Of a DNA stretch of 8,269 nucleotides, positions 1,619 to 8,269 are shown piece after piece. Location: the NCBI GenBank assembly GCA_028696755.1, contig JAQVGK010000134.1, forward strand, positions 1-8,269. Reading direction: 5' to 3'. Every line of letters starts with the position of its first letter. Position 1 is the first letter of the stretch. Source of the DNA: Bacteroidales bacterium (GTDB taxonomy: Bacteria > Bacteroidota > Bacteroidia > Bacteroidales > ML635J-15). The notes beneath the pieces are model-generated. The model did no database searches and was not told where the DNA came from. It saw only the letters and a list, made by a program, of their open reading frames with translations. The position numbers and the translations under genes were made by a program.

Positions 1619-3001
1619 ATGAGTTTTATTAAATCATATTTTTCAGGTTATAATAAGCCCGGAGGAATCAAAGAATTGCTAATTTTAGCTTTACCAATGG
1701 TAATATCTACCGCTGCTGATGGCGTTATGACATTTACCGACAGATTTTTTATGGCACAGCTTGGTCCTGAACAGATGAATGCTGTAATGGGAGGTGGAAT
1801 AGGAGTGCAGGTGCTAATATTTTTCTTTATCGGATTGCTTGGTTATTCTACAGCATTGGTTGCTCAATATTTTGGAGCAGGCGAAAAGAGCAACGCATCA
1901 AAAACATTATCTCAGGCAACAATTGTGGCATTACTTGCATGGCCTGTTATCCTTTTATTAAAACCACTTTCGGTTCAGTTTTTCGAGTTTATGAAAATCC
2001 CAGAGGTGCAACTTGGTTATCAGATTGAGTATTTTAATGTTTTGGTTTGGGGATCTGTTCTTGCACTACTTCGTCATACTCTTAGCTGCTACTTTTCGGG
2101 AATCGGAAAAACTGGAATTGTAATGAGAGCGACCATTGCAGCAATGATAATCAACGTTGTATTGGATTATATTTTAATCTTTGGGCATTTTGGAATAGAA
2201 CCAATGGGAATACGAGGCGCTGCAATTGCAAGTATTGCCGGATCGGCTGGTGCCGTTATAATGCTATTGATTGCTTATTTCAAAAAATCTAATTTAAAAG
2301 AGTTTGAGGTAGCATCATCATTCAAATTTGAGCCTGCCATAATGAAAAAGCTTTTTAAGTTTGGATATCCTGCTGGCATAGAATTATTTTTAAACTTCTT
2401 TGCATTTTTTATAATGATATCATTATTCCATGCACAAGGAGATATTGCAGCAACAGCCTCAACAATAATGTTTAACTGGGATTTGGTGTCGTTTATTCCT
2501 TTACTTGGAATAGAAATAGCAGTTACCAGCCTGGTTGGTAGATATATGGGGGCCGAACGGCCTCAGGTTGCACATCGAGCAGCAATAAGTGGCGTGAAAA
2601 CTGGGATTTTCTATTCGATTATAATTTTAATCCTCTTTGTTTTTATTCCCGAAATTCTCGTTAGAGTTTTTGCTCCCGAAGGATTTTCTTCAACTTTCGA
2701 AGCCGCAGTTCCAGTTGCATCGAATATGATTAGAATAGCGTCACTGTATGTTCTTGCCGAGGCTGTTATGGTTGCTTTGGTTGGAGCACTTAGAGGTGCA
2801 GGCGATACATTTTTTACAATGATGGCTTCTGTTTTGGCTCACTGGCTTTTTGTGCCAATTCTTTACATCTCTTTAAATGTTTTTAACCTTTCGGTTGAAT
2901 GGAGTTGGTTTTTGCTTGTTGTATTTTTCCTCTCATTCTGCTCTGTTCTTTATTTTAGATTCAAGAGTGGGAAATGGAAGAATATTAAGGTGATTGGGTG
3001 A
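1619..3001 (+). CDS. MATE family multidrug/cation antiporter
   Basis: A complete 460-residue inner-membrane protein, the normal length for the family, with about 12 hydrophobic helices in two halves. Visible family features include LPMVISTAADGVMTFTDRFF in helix 1 with Asp41, NVVLDYILIFG at 179-189 at the end of helix 5, and GALRGAGDT at 389-397. The internal pseudo-symmetry of MATE transporters can be read directly: LVAQYFGAGE (80-89) is echoed by LVGRYMGAER (305-314). Proteins of this type export cationic drugs, dyes or metabolites in exchange for Na+ or H+; the substrate cannot be read from sequence. The ATG at 1619 has an A-rich upstream region, as is common in Bacteroidota, and the protein starts at the expected distance from helix 1. 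The gene is transcribed alone and converges on the sulfur cluster, with only 21 bp between stop codons. There is no sign that it functions with that cluster. Confidence 0.93.
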   Translation: MSFIKSYFSGYNKPGGIKELLILALPMVISTAADGVMTFTDRFFMAQLGPEQMNAVMGGGIGVQVLIFFFIGLLGYSTALVAQYFGAGEKSNASKTLSQATIVALLAWPVILLLKPLSVQFFEFMKIPEVQLGYQIEYFNVLVWGSVLALLRHTLSCYFSGIGKTGIVMRATIAAMIINVVLDYILIFGHFGIEPMGIRGAAIASIAGSAGAVIMLLIAYFKKSNLKEFEVASSFKFEPAIMKKLFKFGYPAGIELFLNFFAFFIMISLFHAQGDIAATASTIMFNWDLVSFIPLLGIEIAVTSLVGRYMGAERPQVAHRAAISGVKTGIFYSIIILILFVFIPEILVRVFAPEGFSSTFEAAVPVASNMIRIASLYVLAEAVMVALVGALRGAGDTFFTMMASVLAHWLFVPILYISLNVFNLSVEWSWFLLVVFFLSFCSVLYFRFKSGKWKNIKVIG

Positions 3002-3022: not shown

Positions 3023-3607
3023 TTAACATCCACCTTTTGCTCTGTTCATCATCGGTTTTACATCTGTCGCAGGTGCAGCTTCATCTTGTTTGATGAGATT
3101 TCTGTAGTTCCATCTCATTTTTTCCTCATTAAAATAATTTAAAGCTGGATCTTTAGTCTCTGACCATTGAAGATACATTTCAGGATTTCCTGCTAAAACT
3201 TTTACATTTTCAATTCCCATTGAGCTGTACATCATTAGGTATAAAGATGCATCTGATTGAGACTCGGCACAGATTATAATTTGTTTTTCGCTGTTTCGCA
3301 ACTCTTTTAAAACATTTTTTTCGAAAGCAGATTCCGCCGGGTGATTTATCGCATTTTTAATATGAGCCTTTTTAAAGTTTTCAGCAGATCTTAAATCAAC
3401 AATTAAAACATTATCTCCTTGCGATTTAAGCAATTTGTTGAAGTCGTAAAATTCAATCACAAAATCTTCCGAGTTAATCTTAGCTTGGACTTCTGAATTT
3501 GAAACCTTCCATGATTTGGTTTTATTAGTAATAAATCCAAGCGTTAACGCTCCGATTATCAACAGAAAAAATATTAGTGAGCCGTTGAATAACTGATTAT
3601 TTCTCAT
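3023..3607 (-). CDS. Membrane-anchored rhodanese-like protein with C-terminal KGGC tail
   Basis: A 194-residue protein with one N-terminal hydrophobic segment (residues 9-26), either an uncleaved anchor or a signal peptide, which places the rest outside the cytoplasm. Residues 50-150 form one rhodanese domain: VLIVDLRSAENF (67-78), AHIKNAINHP (81-90) and the active-site loop IIICAESQSDA with Cys113 as the expected persulfide carrier. The loop lacks the usual glycine after the cysteine, so substrate preference may differ from classical thiosulfate sulfurtransferases. A charged, Ala/Pro-containing linker (about 170-190) leads to the final four residues, Lys-Gly-Gly-Cys, with Cys194 last. The same ending occurs on two other proteins of this cluster. 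The gene is the last of the minus-strand series, 138 nt after the transporter fusion, and the gap contains a hairpin/heptad element. It may therefore be expressed at a different level. Rhodanese assignment is strong; the partner and the sulfur donor are unknown. Confidence 0.88.
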   Translation of the reverse strand: MRNNQLFNGSLIFFLLIIGALTLGFITNKTKSWKVSNSEVQAKINSEDFVIEFYDFNKLLKSQGDNVLIVDLRSAENFKKAHIKNAINHPAESAFEKNVLKELRNSEKQIIICAESQSDASLYLMMYSSMGIENVKVLAGNPEMYLQWSETKDPALNYFNEEKMRWNYRNLIKQDEAAPATDVKPMMNRAKGGC

Positions 3608-3644
3608 TTTGATATTTTTATATTATTTTTAATCTTTACCATCG

Positions 3645-3716
3645 TAATTGATTTTGCATAAATTAGCTCCTTGCTCCATGCCCCATGCCCCATGCCGTTA
3701 TGCAAAACTTCAATTA
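3645..3716. repeat. Heptanucleotide tandem repeat framed by a 17-bp inverted repeat
   Basis: TAATTGATTTTGCATAA (3645-3661) pairs with 3698-3716, interrupted only by a 2-nt bulge; the inner ten bases TTTTGCATAA/TTATGCAAAA are a perfect match. The enclosed 36 nt consist of about 4.5 heptads: AGCTCCT, TGCTCCA, TGCCCCA, TGCCCCA, then TGCC. On the minus strand, which is the transcript of the flanking rhodanese genes, the loop is G-rich with GG, GGGG, GGGG, GG and GG runs spaced by 3-5 nt. It could form a hairpin or a two-layer G-quadruplex. It fills the 138-nt gap between two cluster genes, and no T-run follows to make it a simple terminator. Confidence 0.75.
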
Positions 3717-3745
3717 TATTCATTTTTTTCTATCTATAGAGTCAT

Positions 3746-4963
3746 TTAGCATCCGCCTTTAACTGGCTTTACTGTGTTACCACTATCGGTGGGAACCTCT
3801 CCGCCACTATGCTTACGTTTGTTTACTTCACCATCCTTAAAAAACTTACGTGCAAATTCGATAAAACGAACATCGCTCATTAGTCTTATGTCTTTAGTTT
3901 CACTTTCCTGTAAATCGCCGAATATTACGTCGAAGAAATTATTCAAACCTCCTTCAAGAACAAAATAATCGCCCATACCAGCACGTGTGGTTAAAAACCA
4001 AGCGATTTCTGCCTCTTGCGCTCCATTTGAATAGAAAAGTGTTCTATTTTTATCAGTTTTTAACATTTCGGCACTTGTTTTTGATAGTATTTGCTCGGCA
4101 GGAATATTAATTGCTCCCGGTAAATGAAACTCTGCGTATTCTTCAGCAGTTCTTACATCAACGAGCAGAAAATCATCTGTATCATGAATGATAGCATAAG
4201 CAACTTGTTGAGGCTTAATCAATCTTGATTCATCCTGTATTTTCGTAGTCATATCCGATTTTGACAATTCATGAAGATATGTTTTTTTCTGTGCTGGTAA
4301 AGCAACTGCAATAATTGCTAAAGTAAACAAGAAGAAAAGCGAATATTTAACATTTAGCTGCTGTGTATTTAATAAATCTTTAAACCGTTTCGATTTGTTT
4401 TCGATATGCTGAGTGAAAATAAAAGCTCCAACCGCCATGCAAATCAATGCAAAAAGAAACCATTTTTGCGACATTCCGAGACTATCAAAAACGAAAACAT
4501 TACCAAGGTTTTTAGCATTGTAAAGTGGCTCGAAAACGTCGAAGAAATATCCAAAAATAAAAACGCCAATAAAAATTCCCGCTACGAAAACAATTGCATC
4601 GATTTTTCCAATTACGGCAGCAGCAATACTTGTTCCGGGGCAAAATCCACCTAGAATGAATCCGAATCCCATAATAACACCACCAATTATTGCCGACCAA
4701 AGGTAAAGAGGATTTACATAAACAAAACTCATGTCGATCCAGCCAAAATAGCTAAAAAAGAAAACGCCAATTGCAGCGGTAATACCTGCTGTGAAAAACA
4801 CTTTAAGAACAACAAAGTCGTATCCATAAAAAACTCCTGCTAGTTTGCGAGAGGAAGAAAATCCAGCCTGTTCCAGAATAAAACCAAAGCCTATTCCGAT
4901 CAGGAAAGCGAAGAAAAAGTTTAGATCTCCGCTAATAATATTTTGAGGTAATAATGGTCCCAT
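3746..4963 (-). CDS. YeeE/YedE sulfur transporter half fused to a periplasmic rhodanese domain, KGGC tail
   Basis: A 405-residue fusion. Residues 1-225 hold about six membrane helices with the YeeE/YedE (sulphur transport) signature GGFCPGT at 106-111 and Cys108. This resembles the cysteine sites used for thiosulfate passage in TsuA/YeeE. The Lys/Arg-rich loop at 189-198 should be cytoplasmic, so the last helix (205-223) sends the C-terminal half to the periplasm. Residues 245-345 are a rhodanese domain: FLLVDVRTAEEYAEFHLPGAINIP is classical. The active-site loop, however, reads LFYSNGAQEAE, with Ser312 where the catalytic cysteine belongs. The protein ends in a hydrophilic linker and Lys-Gly-Gly-Cys, making Cys405 the only cysteine outside the membrane part. 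It is encoded 12 nt after the other YeeE/YedE half, so the two probably form one channel. The domain may now bind or position a partner rather than catalyse transfer. The substrate (thiosulfate, sulfide, persulfide or a selenium compound) is not determined. Confidence 0.9.
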   Translation of the reverse strand: MGPLLPQNIISGDLNFFFAFLIGIGFGFILEQAGFSSSRKLAGVFYGYDFVVLKVFFTAGITAAIGVFFFSYFGWIDMSFVYVNPLYLWSAIIGGVIMGFGFILGGFCPGTSIAAAVIGKIDAIVFVAGIFIGVFIFGYFFDVFEPLYNAKNLGNVFVFDSLGMSQKWFLFALICMAVGAFIFTQHIENKSKRFKDLLNTQQLNVKYSLFFLFTLAIIAVALPAQKKTYLHELSKSDMTTKIQDESRLIKPQQVAYAIIHDTDDFLLVDVRTAEEYAEFHLPGAINIPAEQILSKTSAEMLKTDKNRTLFYSNGAQEAEIAWFLTTRAGMGDYFVLEGGLNNFFDVIFGDLQESETKDIRLMSDVRFIEFARKFFKDGEVNKRKHSGGEVPTDSGNTVKPVKGGC

Positions 4964-4975
4964 AGTTTTAATCTT

Positions 4976-5494
4976 TTAAATCCATAATTTTCTAAAGAAA
5001 TACGCAATCACATAGCCAGTTCCGAAGATTGCCATCATTGTGAGAAAGCCTCCTGCCGAGAAAACAGCCATCCCGCTCAAAGCAGCTCCAGATGTACACC
5101 CTCGCCCAAACTGAGAACCAAGTCCAAAGAACAATCCACCTGTTAAAGCCAAAATTAATCTAGTAATATTTTTTATGCGTGGCCCTTTGTCTATTTTCCA
5201 AGTCAATCTATTTGATAAAAACCCAGACAAAAAAGCGCCAACCATTAAGCCTATCACCTCAAAAAATAACCATGATTTTATTGGATTTCCTTCGGTTTTA
5301 AAGAATGCCGAAATGTTTTGGGCATCTTTGCTTACTGTATGAGTTGCTGCGATGACTGTGCTTTTTACTGCTCCACTGGCACCTAGGCCACGTCCGGTTA
5401 TTAAAATTGTGGTAAGAAGTAATAACCCAAGCAAAAATCCAGCTAAATATGGATTCATGTATGGTTTTTGAACTTTGCTACTTTCGGTACTCAT
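4976..5494 (-). CDS. YeeE/YedE family sulfur transporter, short 4-helix half
   Basis: A 172-residue integral membrane protein with about four hydrophobic helices (16-34, 74-95, 110-128 and 143-167). The family motif GRGCTSGAALSG is at 130-141 with Cys133, and a related glycine-rich turn, GRGLGASGA, lies at 34-42. Long YeeE proteins such as TsuA carry both cysteine motifs on one chain. Here this half and the downstream 6-helix half each supply one, which is the split arrangement common in this family. The region between helices 1 and 2 (45-72) is longer and more polar and could form a cap. The gene sits 28 nt after the tandem rhodanese lipoprotein gene and 12 nt before the other half, so co-expression and complex formation are likely. 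It probably moves a small sulfur species across the inner membrane; the direction and substrate are inferred only. Confidence 0.87.
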   Translation of the reverse strand: MSTESSKVQKPYMNPYLAGFLLGLLLLTTILITGRGLGASGAVKSTVIAATHTVSKDAQNISAFFKTEGNPIKSWLFFEVIGLMVGAFLSGFLSNRLTWKIDKGPRIKNITRLILALTGGLFFGLGSQFGRGCTSGAALSGMAVFSAGGFLTMMAIFGTGYVIAYFFRKLWI

Positions 5495-5522
5495 TTTATA
5501 TCGTTTTTTATTAGACTTTTAA

Positions 5523-6572
5523 TTAACAACCACCTTTTGGAGCAGGCTTCTTAGGAGCGTCGCCAGTTGCTGCAGCCTGTTGTCCCGATTTTACCAATGG
5601 GAAATTGTAAATATCATCTTTTTTAAAGAATCTGCCAGGCATTCCTTGCTCACTAATAATGCTATACATGTACGCATTTGCACCACCAATAATATTTTTT
5701 GCATCGTAACCAAGCAATCTAAGGTACATGATCACGAAACTCGAATGGTTACCACCATAACAGTCAACAATAATAGTTTTGTCTGTTGGCAAGGTGTTTA
5801 GGAATTCGGATTTTTTAAGCGATTTCTTAGGTTCATAATTTACTGCGCCAGGAATATGTCCGTTTTTATAAATGTCTTCGGGCCAGTAAGATATTATATA
5901 ATATGAACTAGGATTATTTATTACTTCGTCGATTGTGACAAAGTTTTCACCAATTTTTTCGGATAAAACTATTTCGAGCCTGTATTTAAGAATGTCGTAA
6001 GGTTCCGAAAACTCAGTCATAAGCACTGGGAATTTGCCAGCTGGATTTTTTGCAGTATTTGTTGTGTCTAATTTATCAATAAGCAAATCAGAAATGTTCT
6101 TGAGTCGATAATTTAATGCAATTACAGAATCCCAAGCACTTAATCCATATTTCATTGGAAAAACATTATCGTAACCTAAATATCTTATTCCAGTTGCACA
6201 AAATGCAGAAGCATGTCCCGAATTACACACAATTACAATAGTGTCGAAAGATTTTGCATTGATAGAATTCGTAAAATACTTAACCAAACTATCAGGTCGA
6301 ACATTTACCGAGTTAGCGATATGTCCCGAGTCGAAATCTGGAGTCATTCTAATGTCGATTACAAGATAGTTCTTGGTTAAGCCATTGTATACTTCTGGTG
6401 CAGAAACAAAAAACGGGAAATCTTTACTGTTGACAAGATCACCGTTTGTTTCCATATATTCAATGAGCTTGTCAAAGCCATCAGATTTTTCTACTTGAGA
6501 CTTTTTTTCATTACCGCAACTCGCAAAAAATATTGCAAGAATAAATAATAATATGGTGTATTGTTTTTTCAT
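5523..6572 (-). CDS. Tandem rhodanese-domain lipoprotein with C-terminal KGGC tail
   Basis: I start this gene at the ATG at 6570-6572, giving 349 residues. A longer in-frame start at 6650 would add 26 mostly Lys/Arg residues that overlap the preceding gene and would bury the signal peptide. From the chosen start, MKKQYTILLFILAIFFASC is a type II signal sequence with lipidated Cys19. Domain 1 (about 57-155) has the loop IVIVCNSGHASA with Cys116. Domain 2 (about 195-305) has GHIPGAVNYEP (238-248) and the loop IIVDCYGGNHSS with Cys271. Both catalytic cysteines are therefore present, unlike classical two-domain rhodaneses, in which only the second is active. A low-complexity Ala/Pro/Lys linker (about 328-345) ends in Lys-Gly-Gly-Cys (Cys349). 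The start lies 7 nt after the cytochrome b stop. The protein should face the periplasm and carry or transfer sulfane sulfur near the cytochromes and the YeeE/YedE channel. Donor and acceptor are not known. Confidence 0.9.
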   Translation of the reverse strand: MKKQYTILLFILAIFFASCGNEKKSQVEKSDGFDKLIEYMETNGDLVNSKDFPFFVSAPEVYNGLTKNYLVIDIRMTPDFDSGHIANSVNVRPDSLVKYFTNSINAKSFDTIVIVCNSGHASAFCATGIRYLGYDNVFPMKYGLSAWDSVIALNYRLKNISDLLIDKLDTTNTAKNPAGKFPVLMTEFSEPYDILKYRLEIVLSEKIGENFVTIDEVINNPSSYYIISYWPEDIYKNGHIPGAVNYEPKKSLKKSEFLNTLPTDKTIIVDCYGGNHSSFVIMYLRLLGYDAKNIIGGANAYMYSIISEQGMPGRFFKKDDIYNFPLVKSGQQAAATGDAPKKPAPKGGC

Positions 6573-6579
6573 GGAGCTA

Positions 6580-7245
6580 TTATTTTTCTTCTGTGTCGGT
6601 TTTTGTTTCAGTTTTTTTCTCATCTTTCTTTTCTTCTTCATCTTCTTCAAGGTCTTCCCAACCAGTAATCATTGCTTTGATGTTAGAAGTAGGAGTATGG
6701 CCTGTTGTTGTAAGATAAATATGTGCAACAATAAAAGCAATAAGCAAAAACGCTCCGATTGTGTGAAGCAAAGCAACTGGTTCAACAGAGCCAAAATTTA
6801 GTGAATAGATTTCTCCTCCCATTGGGTAGCGGTAAAACATGTATAAAATACCAGTAAGAACCATTAATGGAATTAAAACTATCTTTAATCCAAGATATGT
6901 GAGACGCTGTAATGGGTTTAGTTTTGTTAAGATTGTTTTTCGCGTAGGGTGAGGAGCATTTTTGAAAATCCCAGTAATATAATATGCTGCCTGCGCTTTT
7001 AGATTTTTTACTGTAGGAATGTATTGCCTCCATTCGCCTGTAGTAAAATGCCAGAAAATTGCAAAAACAACAAGAATAATGAGTGAAATCGCAGAAAAAT
7101 TGTGCACATTAACTGCTGTTTCGTAACCAAAAATCTCGTATGCTCCGTTTACCTCAAAACCTGTTAGAGCCAAGGTGAAAATAAGTAATGATTGAGTCCA
7201 GTGCCAAAATCTTTCAAAACCTTTATAAATATATGCTTTTTTCAT
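6580..7245 (-). CDS. Cytochrome b561-type membrane subunit (di-heme quinone-linked)
   Basis: A 221-residue inner-membrane protein of the cytochrome b561 / Ni-Fe hydrogenase cytochrome b type. It has four main hydrophobic helices (about 16-34, 50-68, 117-137 and 158-180). Candidate heme-ligand histidines lie in the right places: His15 (RFWHWTQ) in helix 1, His48 or His66 (NVHNF, FWHF) around helix 2, and His161 (LLHTIGA) and His175 (VAHIYL) in helix 4. Such subunits usually exchange electrons between the quinone pool and a periplasmic partner. The partner here is almost certainly the multiheme cytochrome c encoded 12 nt upstream. The C-terminus (about 197-221) is an unusual tail made almost only of Glu, Asp, Lys and Thr, which could dock a cytosolic factor or be a neutral low-complexity extension. 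The next gene begins 7 nt after its stop. The exact heme ligands are inferred from the family pattern. Confidence 0.88.
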   Translation of the reverse strand: MKKAYIYKGFERFWHWTQSLLIFTLALTGFEVNGAYEIFGYETAVNVHNFSAISLIILVVFAIFWHFTTGEWRQYIPTVKNLKAQAAYYITGIFKNAPHPTRKTILTKLNPLQRLTYLGLKIVLIPLMVLTGILYMFYRYPMGGEIYSLNFGSVEPVALLHTIGAFLLIAFIVAHIYLTTTGHTPTSNIKAMITGWEDLEEDEEEKKDEKKTETKTDTEEK

Positions 7246-7257
7246 AATCCGAATTTC

Positions 7258-8269
7258 TTAGTTTGATTTTTTACTTTTTCTATTTCTGCGAAAGCCAGCT
7301 AAAACTCTTAAAGATGCATGTCCGAAAACCCCACCTAATGAAAGTAGCACGAAAAGAATGCCGACTGTGTTTAATGTTTTGTTATAAGTAGTTCCTGGAA
7401 CATAAACCCCTGGTATATTTTTCATTCTCGAATTTTCTCTGTTATGACAATCTGTACAGGTTAGTGCTTGTTCCGATTTTGAAACCATGTGACTAACTGG
7501 TAGATACATTCTTGTTGGAATAAATCCATATTCACCACTATAAGGCATCCCAACATATGCCATCCCTTTTCCGAGTGCAATATCCCAATCCAGATCTTTC
7601 CATAATGCGCCTTGACCAACAGTATCAGCCCAAAGTTTTGCCTGAAGCAGATTTTTATACTTCAAATCATAAGGTTGTTTACCTCTATGGACTTTAACCG
7701 GAACAATTTTGGAATGAGGATCATCGTATGAACCAAATAAAGTGTTGATATTAACAGTGTCGGTAGTGATTTTATCGGTTATTAAATGGTGATCTGCAGT
7801 TCCATTAAACCATACATACTCTGGTTCTACATTTGTAGCCCAACGAAAATCTCCTTTTTCCGAAAGATAAATGTCATTTCCAGCCGAATCTTTAATCGTA
7901 TAAGGCATACCATCTTGGCGACGGCCAGCAGTTGACCAGTCCCAATACATTTTCGTAGGATTTACTTTGGCATAATGTGGTATGTGACAGGTGCGACAAT
8001 CAACTTTTACAGTATGCTCATTCAACTTGCTCTCTTTATGAGGATATTTGTCATGGCAATCGGTACATGATGCGCGATTTGTATTTGTTGAAGAAACTGC
8101 ATAATATTTTCCCTTCATTACATGATTTTCGGCGGTATGGCAATCAACACATTCCATATTCAATCCATCCTTTGCCATGTGCACGTCAACATTTTTGTCG
8201 CAATCGAGCAAAGCCATTTCTAAATCTCCATGCTTGATATTATTTCCACCTGCACTCATAAAATGGCAA
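7258..8269 (-). CDS. Multiheme c-type cytochrome, octaheme tetrathionate reductase family, C-terminal part
   Basis: The frame is open through the right edge. The ATG at 8257-8259 is internal, because the codons before it read Cys-His-Phe and the Cys-His is the end of another heme-binding CxxCH motif. Counting from that Met, four complete CxxCH motifs are visible at residues 37-41, 65-69, 88-92 and 268-272, giving at least five hemes with the cut one. The spacing and blocks such as CHIPHYAKVNPTKMYWDWST (91-110) and LNEHTVKVDC (79-88) fit the octaheme tetrathionate reductase-like family, so about three more hemes should lie upstream. Shewanella OTR reduces tetrathionate, nitrite and hydroxylamine in vitro; its physiological substrate is unsettled. 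Residues 296-318 form a membrane helix followed by the basic tail RRNRKSKKSN. This would anchor the enzyme to the inner membrane, facing the periplasm, next to the cytochrome b encoded 12 nt downstream. The substrate here could be a sulfur or a nitrogen compound; the neighbours favour sulfur. Confidence 0.87.
   Translation of the reverse strand, partial: CHFMSAGGNNIKHGDLEMALLDCDKNVDVHMAKDGLNMECVDCHTAENHVMKGKYYAVSSTNTNRASCTDCHDKYPHKESKLNEHTVKVDCRTCHIPHYAKVNPTKMYWDWSTAGRRQDGMPYTIKDSAGNDIYLSEKGDFRWATNVEPEYVWFNGTADHHLITDKITTDTVNINTLFGSYDDPHSKIVPVKVHRGKQPYDLKYKNLLQAKLWADTVGQGALWKDLDWDIALGKGMAYVGMPYSGEYGFIPTRMYLPVSHMVSKSEQALTCTDCHNRENSRMKNIPGVYVPGTTYNKTLNTVGILFVLLSLGGVFGHASLRVLAGFRRNRKSKKSN

Follow-up and report, generated by a model that had tools for sequence, protein, structure and literature searches.

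Rhodaneses with a terminal Gly-Cys tail in a putative sulfur-reduction operon of Bacteroidota, and a possible relocation of their reactive cysteine

The operon and its rhodaneses

The stretch of DNA analysed here (the window) is the whole 8,269 nucleotides of contig JAQVGK010000134.1 from a Bacteroidales bacterium, and it carries on its minus strand an operon in which three rhodaneses of 194, 405 and 349 residues all end in Lys-Gly-Gly-Cys, an observation of the initial annotation that is confirmed from the open reading frames (ORFs). As two of the three kinds of rhodanese have lost the catalytic cysteine yet end in Gly-Gly-Cys, their sequences suggest that the reactive, sulfur-carrying cysteine has moved out of the rhodanese fold onto a flexible tail and there serves a sulfur reductase that they have in common. 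The genes run from the octaheme cytochrome through the cytochrome b561-type subunit, the double rhodanese, YeeE2 and the YeeE1-rhodanese to the transmembrane (TM) rhodanese, with intergenic gaps of 7-28 bases, the exception being the 138 bases ahead of the last gene, that of the TM-rhodanese.

7258..8268, minus strand: octaheme c-type cytochrome (tetrathionate reductase family, TIGR04315) whose N terminus runs off the window
6580..7245, minus strand: cytochrome b561-type membrane subunit, the nearest NCBIfam model being the thiosulfate reductase cytochrome B subunit, below its cut-off
5523..6572, minus strand: lipoprotein-like double rhodanese, 349 residues, tail PAPKGGC, with both catalytic cysteines (Cys116 and Cys271) retained
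5523..5534, minus strand: codons of the terminal Gly-Gly-Cys and stop of the 349-residue protein
4976..5494, minus strand: YeeE2, the C-terminal half of YeeE/YedE, 172 residues, ending RKLWI, without the tail
3746..4963, minus strand: fusion of YeeE1 (the N-terminal half of YeeE/YedE), a TM segment and a rhodanese, 405 residues, tail VKPVKGGC, Ser312 at the position of the catalytic cysteine
3746..3757, minus strand: codons of the terminal Gly-Gly-Cys and stop of the 405-residue protein
3023..3607, minus strand: TM-anchored rhodanese, 194 residues, tail NRAKGGC, Ala114 at the position of the catalytic cysteine
3023..3034, minus strand: codons of the terminal Gly-Gly-Cys and stop of the 194-residue protein

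That the three proteins differ in domain layout and anchor, as had been noted from the sequence, also holds: one is a TM segment with a rhodanese, one is half a YeeE with a rhodanese, and one has two rhodanese stretches after a lipobox-like N terminus (the lipobox being judged by eye). The length of 349 residues is counted from an ATG, and an alternative longer form starts at a TTG 26 codons upstream. The Pfam rhodanese family (PF00581) matches the three proteins with 43.7, 52.4 and 93.9 bits against a gathering threshold of 22.2, and the two YeeE halves score 58.3 and 70.1 bits to Sulf_transp (PF04143), for which the threshold is 27; against the TsuA equivalog model of NCBIfam the window YeeE scores far under the cut-off. 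The partial octaheme cytochrome of the window reaches 361.5 bits to TIGR04315 (cut-off 375), and its longer relative in the related locus L001 reaches 560.5 bits.

Related loci were gathered in two sets, with the genome sampling kept to Bacteroidota-centred draws. Set 1 consists of 79 loci from a profile scan of genome contigs (the best 80 of 557), and set 2 of 50 loci from 395 genomes drawn within Bacteroidota, 20 of these loci being hand-chosen among matching genomes that had previously been without a locus; L160 and L189 in set 2 yielded no rhodanese ORF and so are uncounted. Since the YeeE1-rhodanese profile matched 65 of the 395 genomes, some of the matches covering the YeeE half only, the module is by this measure widespread in Bacteroidota; a plasmid search gave just three weak partial matches. 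A protein is called tailed here when it has a cysteine within its last two residues.

The conserved tail

Homologue lists, which include the window's own proteins, hold the best 120 of 2747 matches for the 405-residue protein, the best 120 of 161 for the 349-residue protein and 11 for the 194-residue protein. The end is GGC in 117 of the 120 YeeE1-rhodanese homologues listed (of the others one is VGC, one AGC and one, P0074, of another form) and in all 11 listed relatives of the 194-residue protein. The lysine and the KP step that the initial annotation took to belong to the motif do not hold up, with lysine ahead of GGC in just 29 of the 120 and KP not conserved either, and KGGC was rejected as the motif on the lysine count; the conserved unit is G-G-C or, more widely, G-C with at most one further residue. 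With P0074 excluded, the entropy in the YeeE1-rhodaneses is 0 bits at the last and second-last positions and 0.14 bits at the third from the end, and it ranges over 2.1-3.6 bits in the 22 positions ahead of these. Among 202 tailed proteins from both sets, counted before duplicates were dropped, the forms are GGC (176), GGCS (8), EGC (6), GGCA (4), GGCG (2), GLCS (2) and one each of GAC, VGC, GGCT and MGC. In the related loci YeeE2 and those YeeE1 halves that are not fused to a rhodanese are free of the tail.

The Gly-Gly ahead of the last residue raises the thought of ubiquitin-like processing, in which the cysteine would be clipped off and the Gly-Gly end converted to a thiocarboxylate, a route of the ThiS/MoaD kind, and MoeB-type models do match the rhodanese domains. 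The cysteine is, however, as invariant as the glycine, the EGC, MGC, GLCS, GGCS and GGCA ends exist, and an exported lipoprotein would be without ATP for activation, so that such processing is barely credible. Selenocysteine or readthrough at the stop codon was a further candidate that was ruled out, as the 142 GGC-ending genes of set 1 stop with TAA in 91 cases, TGA in 37 and TAG in 14; these genes also use all four glycine codons and both cysteine codons.

Those 142 genes come from 1017 complete ORFs of at least 80 residues in set 1, and all of them fall in the rhodanese/YeeE1 cluster (190 complete ORFs), with no GGC end among the 827 other complete ORFs of the 79 loci. GGC ends of this kind are not due to chance, and random GGC ends unrelated to sulfur genes, which were envisaged at the outset as evidence against a function, do not occur in set 1. 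In three genomes the sites with GGC before a stop were checked more widely: in G001 (6 of 6 sites) the sole GGC protein is the YeeE1-rhodanese of the operon, in G003 (17 of 17, three being the operon's own) there are three GGC proteins, all of the operon, and in G002 (41 of 42) there are the operon rhodanese, a 439-residue ORF and two short ORFs of 82 and 73 residues that are overlapped by longer ORFs.

A C-terminal tag for sorting or lipid anchoring would suit a feature common to three envelope-looking proteins with the cysteine at the very end. Yet each protein is already anchored, by TM segments or by the lipobox seen by eye, the three window proteins are without a hydrophobic segment near the C end, the NCBIfam hits include no sorting-signal model, and among the loci examined only rhodaneses of one operon bear the tail. 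A sorting role is accordingly thought very unlikely.

Loss of the catalytic-loop cysteine

A finding that goes beyond the initial annotation is that two of the rhodanese types have lost the cysteine of the catalytic loop. With the types assigned by hidden Markov model (HMM) scores over both sets and five duplicates dropped, the loop cysteine is found in 0 of 81 YeeE1-rhodaneses and the terminal cysteine in 79 of 81; for the TM-rhodaneses the figures are 1 of 89 and 89 of 89, and for the lipoprotein type 31 of 32 and 30 of 32. Across the 120 homologues of the 405-residue protein the loop position is serine in 86, glycine in 31, alanine in 3 and cysteine in none, and only two cysteine columns are near-invariant, C108 in the CPGT of YeeE (120 of 120) and C405 (119 of 120). 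HMM alignments to solved rhodaneses place the loop cysteine of 6mxv on that position. In earlier alignments, for which the TM and lipoprotein locus members were picked for having the tail, 87 TM-rhodaneses have serine, alanine or glycine at the loop position in 85 cases, cysteine in one and tyrosine in one, their single cysteine column exceeding 30% of rows being the final one, and the 349-residue family has the loop cysteine in 113 of 128 for domain 1 and 120 of 128 for domain 2. The active-site-loop cysteine by which an active rhodanese is recognised is thus present in the 349-residue protein and absent from the 405- and 194-residue proteins, although the latter does have Cys113 one residue ahead of the catalytic position. 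The lipoprotein type is equipped to act as a sulfurtransferase, and the remaining two types combine the fold with a mobile thiol but have no loop cysteine.

Other rhodanese ORFs of the three genomes provide a comparison. One in 15 is tailed, L193, which has a cysteine-rich end; L204 was unmatched and is uncounted. L193 (G003:C69:4000-6300, in the genome of L002) is a 153-residue rhodanese outside the operon that has the loop cysteine and a GCGCGC...SCC end. The loop could be aligned in 12 of the 15, and as 11 of these have at least one loop cysteine, with alanine in L194 and with one domain lacking it in each of L196 and L198, ordinary rhodaneses do lose the loop cysteine sometimes but not as a rule.

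The reductase and transporter context

Genes of the octaheme tetrathionate reductase (OTR) type are found in 33 of the 79 loci of set 1 and PhsA-like genes in 26, with both in one (L021). Among the 50 anchors whose upstream flank is 5 kb or longer, 25 have OTR, 23 a PhsA-like gene, one both and one neither (L017), so in 49 of 50 testable loci the operon carries either an octaheme cytochrome of the tetrathionate reductase family or a PhsA/PsrA-like molybdoenzyme. The expectation that GGC-ended ORFs would cluster with YeeE and octaheme genes was borne out as far as all 142 being operon rhodaneses; the octaheme cytochrome is just one of two alternative reductases. The PhsA-like version of the operon is also that of the isolate Sunxiuqinia indica (locus L079). 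The PhsA-like protein of L021, the one member tested, is PhsA/PsrA-like and by the NCBIfam model not PhsA, because it scores 465.5 bits against an equivalog cut-off of 694. L021 (about 0.1-12 kb) has two adjacent modules, one of PhsA-like, NrfD, YeeE and TM-rhodanese (GGCS) genes, the other of OTR, cytochrome b, lipoprotein, YeeE1-rhodanese and TM-rhodanese (GGC) genes.

In set 1 the YeeE1-rhodanese is fused in 32 of 32 loci with OTR only and in 0 of 25 with PhsA only; in set 2 the PhsA locus L176 holds a fused YeeE1-rhodanese ORF. The cysteine tail goes with the rhodanese whether YeeE1 is fused or split. On an Ignavibacteria chromosome (L058) the YeeE1-rhodanese is the sole rhodanese found in company with OTR, cytochrome b and YeeE2. 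The idea that the operon includes a TusA/YeeD partner was also considered and rejected, there being no TusA-like motif in the short ORFs of 130 sequences.

It is possible to regard the terminal thiol as part of a metal, heme or redox site, as a ligand or as the disulfide partner of, for example, YeeE Cys108, by which transport would be gated, for Cys108 of YeeE1 is equally invariant (120 of 120) and cytochrome genes adjoin those of the tail proteins. The same tail is nevertheless borne by TM-rhodaneses and lipoproteins that have no YeeE part, and a Gly-Cys carried by a long arm that is disordered would probably make a poor fixed ligand, which leaves this explanation improbable.

For the lipoprotein type the tail depends on where the gene lies. 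Unselected homologues of this type longer than 300 residues (P0121-P0222) are tailed in 41 of 98 cases. The tail is present in 30 of 35 lipoproteins whose locus contains YeeE (L018 dropped as a duplicate, L187 below the score limit) versus 1 of 21 with no YeeE within a few kilobases around the lipoprotein gene (Fisher p 1e-9). These totals pool sets 1 and 2 with a lipoprotein sample chosen independently of YeeE, in which 30 of 395 genomes match and which comprises 20 loci and 24 ORFs; in that sample 21 ORFs have no YeeE in the locus and one of them is tailed, and three lie beside YeeE and none is tailed. Tail-less lipoprotein genes (L210-L229) often adjoin an ORF of about 450 residues, and in L212 and L216 Pfam finds a multiheme cytochrome, so that these two loci represent another rhodanese-cytochrome pairing; a further small ORF, in L212, matches TPR weakly.

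Co-variation and origin of the tails

The tails of different paralogues within a locus resemble each other more than do tails from different loci. The comparison covers 72 pairs from 32 non-redundant loci, each of which has two or three tailed paralogues that differ in type. Over the six residues ahead of Gly-Gly, within-locus paralogues share 1.67 identities versus 0.95 after the tails have been shuffled between loci. Beside GGC this gives z 6.7 (p at most 3.3e-4), and the z values of three windows farther from the end are 1.9, 1.2 and 2.0. A shared partner would account for this co-variation, from which lineage effects are not fully removed.

Related rhodaneses of one operon could also inherit tails or convert them to one another's, so that the likeness might reflect shared ancestry or chance with no function behind it. 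In a codon comparison of 45 loci, with redundant loci and tandem TM copies included and type labels partly wrong, matching within-locus tail residues use the same codon in 134 of 248 cases, which is in keeping with this, and different codons in 114 of 248. Copying alone is insufficient for the match, because 114 residues use other codons, and recent copying was ruled out as the whole cause. Moreover the linkers randomise while GGC stays, and a tree of the lipoprotein type, with 69 tailed rows among 129, shows 8 changes of the tail, at least five of them on starred branches. An origin without function is thus highly improbable.

The same co-variation, and the way in which the lipoprotein tail tracks the operon, would also be expected of an assembly or docking tag, a terminal peptide that binds a pocket of the reductase or of YeeE and holds the complex together with the cysteine serving for binding, for example through a disulfide. 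Only GGC is near-invariant, though a docking peptide might keep more, and docking leaves the loss of the catalytic cysteine unexplained in exactly those types in which the tail is near-obligatory. Docking as the sole role of the tail is considered unlikely.

A proposed sulfur-carrier arm

The explanation that is preferred, to which a probability of about 0.65 is given, is that the sulfur-carrying thiol has been relocated to the terminal cysteine, whose flexible arm would reach a partner common to these rhodaneses and act in the manner of SoxY although it is not a SoxY. The initial proposal of a swinging arm or docking tag in a membrane sulfur relay fits the conservation, the predicted disorder, the association with YeeE and reductases, the cysteine loss and the co-variation, and fails in the lysine and KP step. 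Odds a little better than even are put on the wider suggestion of a new class of carriers, in which several rhodanese paralogues per operon swapped the catalytic cysteine for a C-terminal Gly-Cys arm, shared by two unrelated reductases and with the arms co-evolving to a common partner.

The predicted structures are consistent with an arm. AlphaFold2 gives the 194-residue protein a rhodanese fold with a mean pLDDT (predicted local distance difference test) of 86 and block means of 52-59 for residues 171-194, and in a Foldseek comparison of this model with solved rhodaneses the best match is BH2092 (E 7e-6); for the 405-residue protein the mean is 77, with residues 385-405 under 50. A low-confidence tail fits a flexible arm that is predicted to be disordered, and its length, by eye from the alignments, is roughly 20-45 residues.

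The operon could be a membrane-bound, probably periplasm-facing module for the reduction of sulfane sulfur, with a periplasmic side probable from the lipobox, the extra TM segment ahead of the fused rhodanese and the cytochromes. Its reductase is presumably quinol-linked, with the octaheme cytochrome and cytochrome b in the window and a PhsA/PsrA-like protein, an iron-sulfur protein and NrfD in the sister operons, and the module would further hold the YeeE transporter split in halves and one to three rhodaneses. The terminal thiol may take up sulfane sulfur in persulfide or thiosulfonate form, with the intact lipoprotein rhodanese, the pocket of its own fold and YeeE as possible donors, and the arm would then deliver it within the active site of the common reductase, which is the presumed direction of flow. 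The simplest relay would lead from the catalytic rhodanese to the Gly-Cys arms and on to the reductase, or to YeeE. Perhaps the arm can also be loaded without the lipoprotein, because OTR loci like L058 show only the YeeE1-rhodanese. Alternatively the arm may fold back into its own cysteine-less pocket, in which case it would equally be a carrier, and the data fit this as they do delivery in trans.

A number of observations count against the preferred explanation. Both locus sets were obtained with tailed queries, and for the YeeE1 and TM types tail gain and loss of the catalytic cysteine may each go back to a single ancient event, which would make the counts non-independent. Of the 35 proteins of the lipoprotein type beside YeeE 5 are tail-less, and L187, a weaker homologue of 308 residues beside YeeE, has no tail either. 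L017 (10001-11122) and L018 (4603-5724), identical at 371 of 373 residues, are the only tail-less YeeE1-rhodaneses. Lineage effects may contribute to the co-variation, two of the upstream windows having z of 1.9-2.0, AlphaFold2 places the tail in no pocket with confidence, and the positive-inside rule, at 38 of 73 for the TM-rhodaneses, leaves the side of the membrane unsettled. Homologues that keep the domains and are without the cysteine, on which the initial annotation thought its idea might founder, are confined to L017, L018 and lipoprotein types, the last mostly outside the operon. As L017 is also the sole well-flanked locus without reductase genes, its lack of a tail may be a natural loss that ties the tail to the reductase.

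Comparison with known systems

In SoxY (SoxYZ), the sulfur carrier of the Sox pathway, a C-terminal arm ending in GGCGG is described in the available text of PMC6067878. The arm proposed here would act similarly, with a C-terminal carrier cysteine, but no SoxY family is among the Pfam hits (E 0.001) of the window proteins, the cysteine here is at the very end, and GGCGG is not among the 202 ends counted, a cysteine followed by Gly-Gly falling outside that count. The neighbourhood is one of sulfur reductases and not of sulfur oxidation, although no specific search for other sox genes was made.

In DsrC/TusE the reactive cysteine lies close to the tip of a flexible arm at the C terminus, on which sulfur is carried, but these proteins are cytoplasmic, with a penultimate cysteine and a second cysteine on the arm, and their fold is unrelated to the rhodaneses considered here. 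Sud of Wolinella succinogenes, the sulfur supplier of polysulfide reductase, is likewise a rhodanese paired with a periplasmic sulfur reductase, and the TM-rhodanese profile matches its structure, 1qxn, with E 5.6e-7. Sud uses its catalytic-loop cysteine and is not known to have a Gly-Cys tail, whereas the YeeE1 and TM types are without the loop cysteine and are membrane-anchored or fused to YeeE, though a PhsA/PsrA-like gene is present in 26 of the 79 loci.

In thiosulfate uptake by YeeE-YeeD/TsuA a sulfur-handling cysteine protein works with YeeE or is fused to it, as far as the available text of PMC11073785 describes it. The Sulf_transp family is common to both systems, but here YeeE is split and its partner is a rhodanese with a cysteine tail and no loop cysteine instead of a TusA-like YeeD. 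A Psr operon with a three-rhodanese sulfur-transferase is reported from Desulfurivibrio dismutans (PMC12142623, in part), and YTD clusters tie YeeE/YedE to sulfur reduction or disproportionation (PMC12998232, in part). The likeness lies in rhodaneses and YeeE/YedE being tied to those processes; a terminal Gly-Cys and loss of the catalytic cysteine are not mentioned in the portions of these two papers that were available. Among the titles and abstract openings that literature searches listed, with most subscription journals outside their scope, none describes terminal cysteine tails on rhodaneses. The tail system would extend what is known of sulfur delivery by rhodaneses and of swinging-arm carriers, and a catalytic thiol moved to a tail is potentially new.

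If the carrier arm is real, the rhodaneses would be an enzyme family in which the catalytic thiol has left a fixed loop for a mobile arm, and a rhodanese with a Gly-Cys at its extreme C terminus would be a sequence tag for finding modules of sulfane-sulfur respiration, as well as a way to test the handover of sulfane sulfur to membrane-bound reductases.

Other ORFs and flanking genes

Two ORFs in the genome of L079 that are not rhodaneses and may be genes also end in GGC. L106 contains an 82-residue ORF (1483-1731) of a small membrane type that ends KGGC and is overlapped by a longer ORF, and L111 a 439-residue ORF (1462-2781). Past the 3' end of the operon in the window, and with no apparent link to it, lie a YjbQ/UPF0047 protein at 178-594 on the minus strand and a MATE efflux transporter at 1619-3001 on the plus strand.

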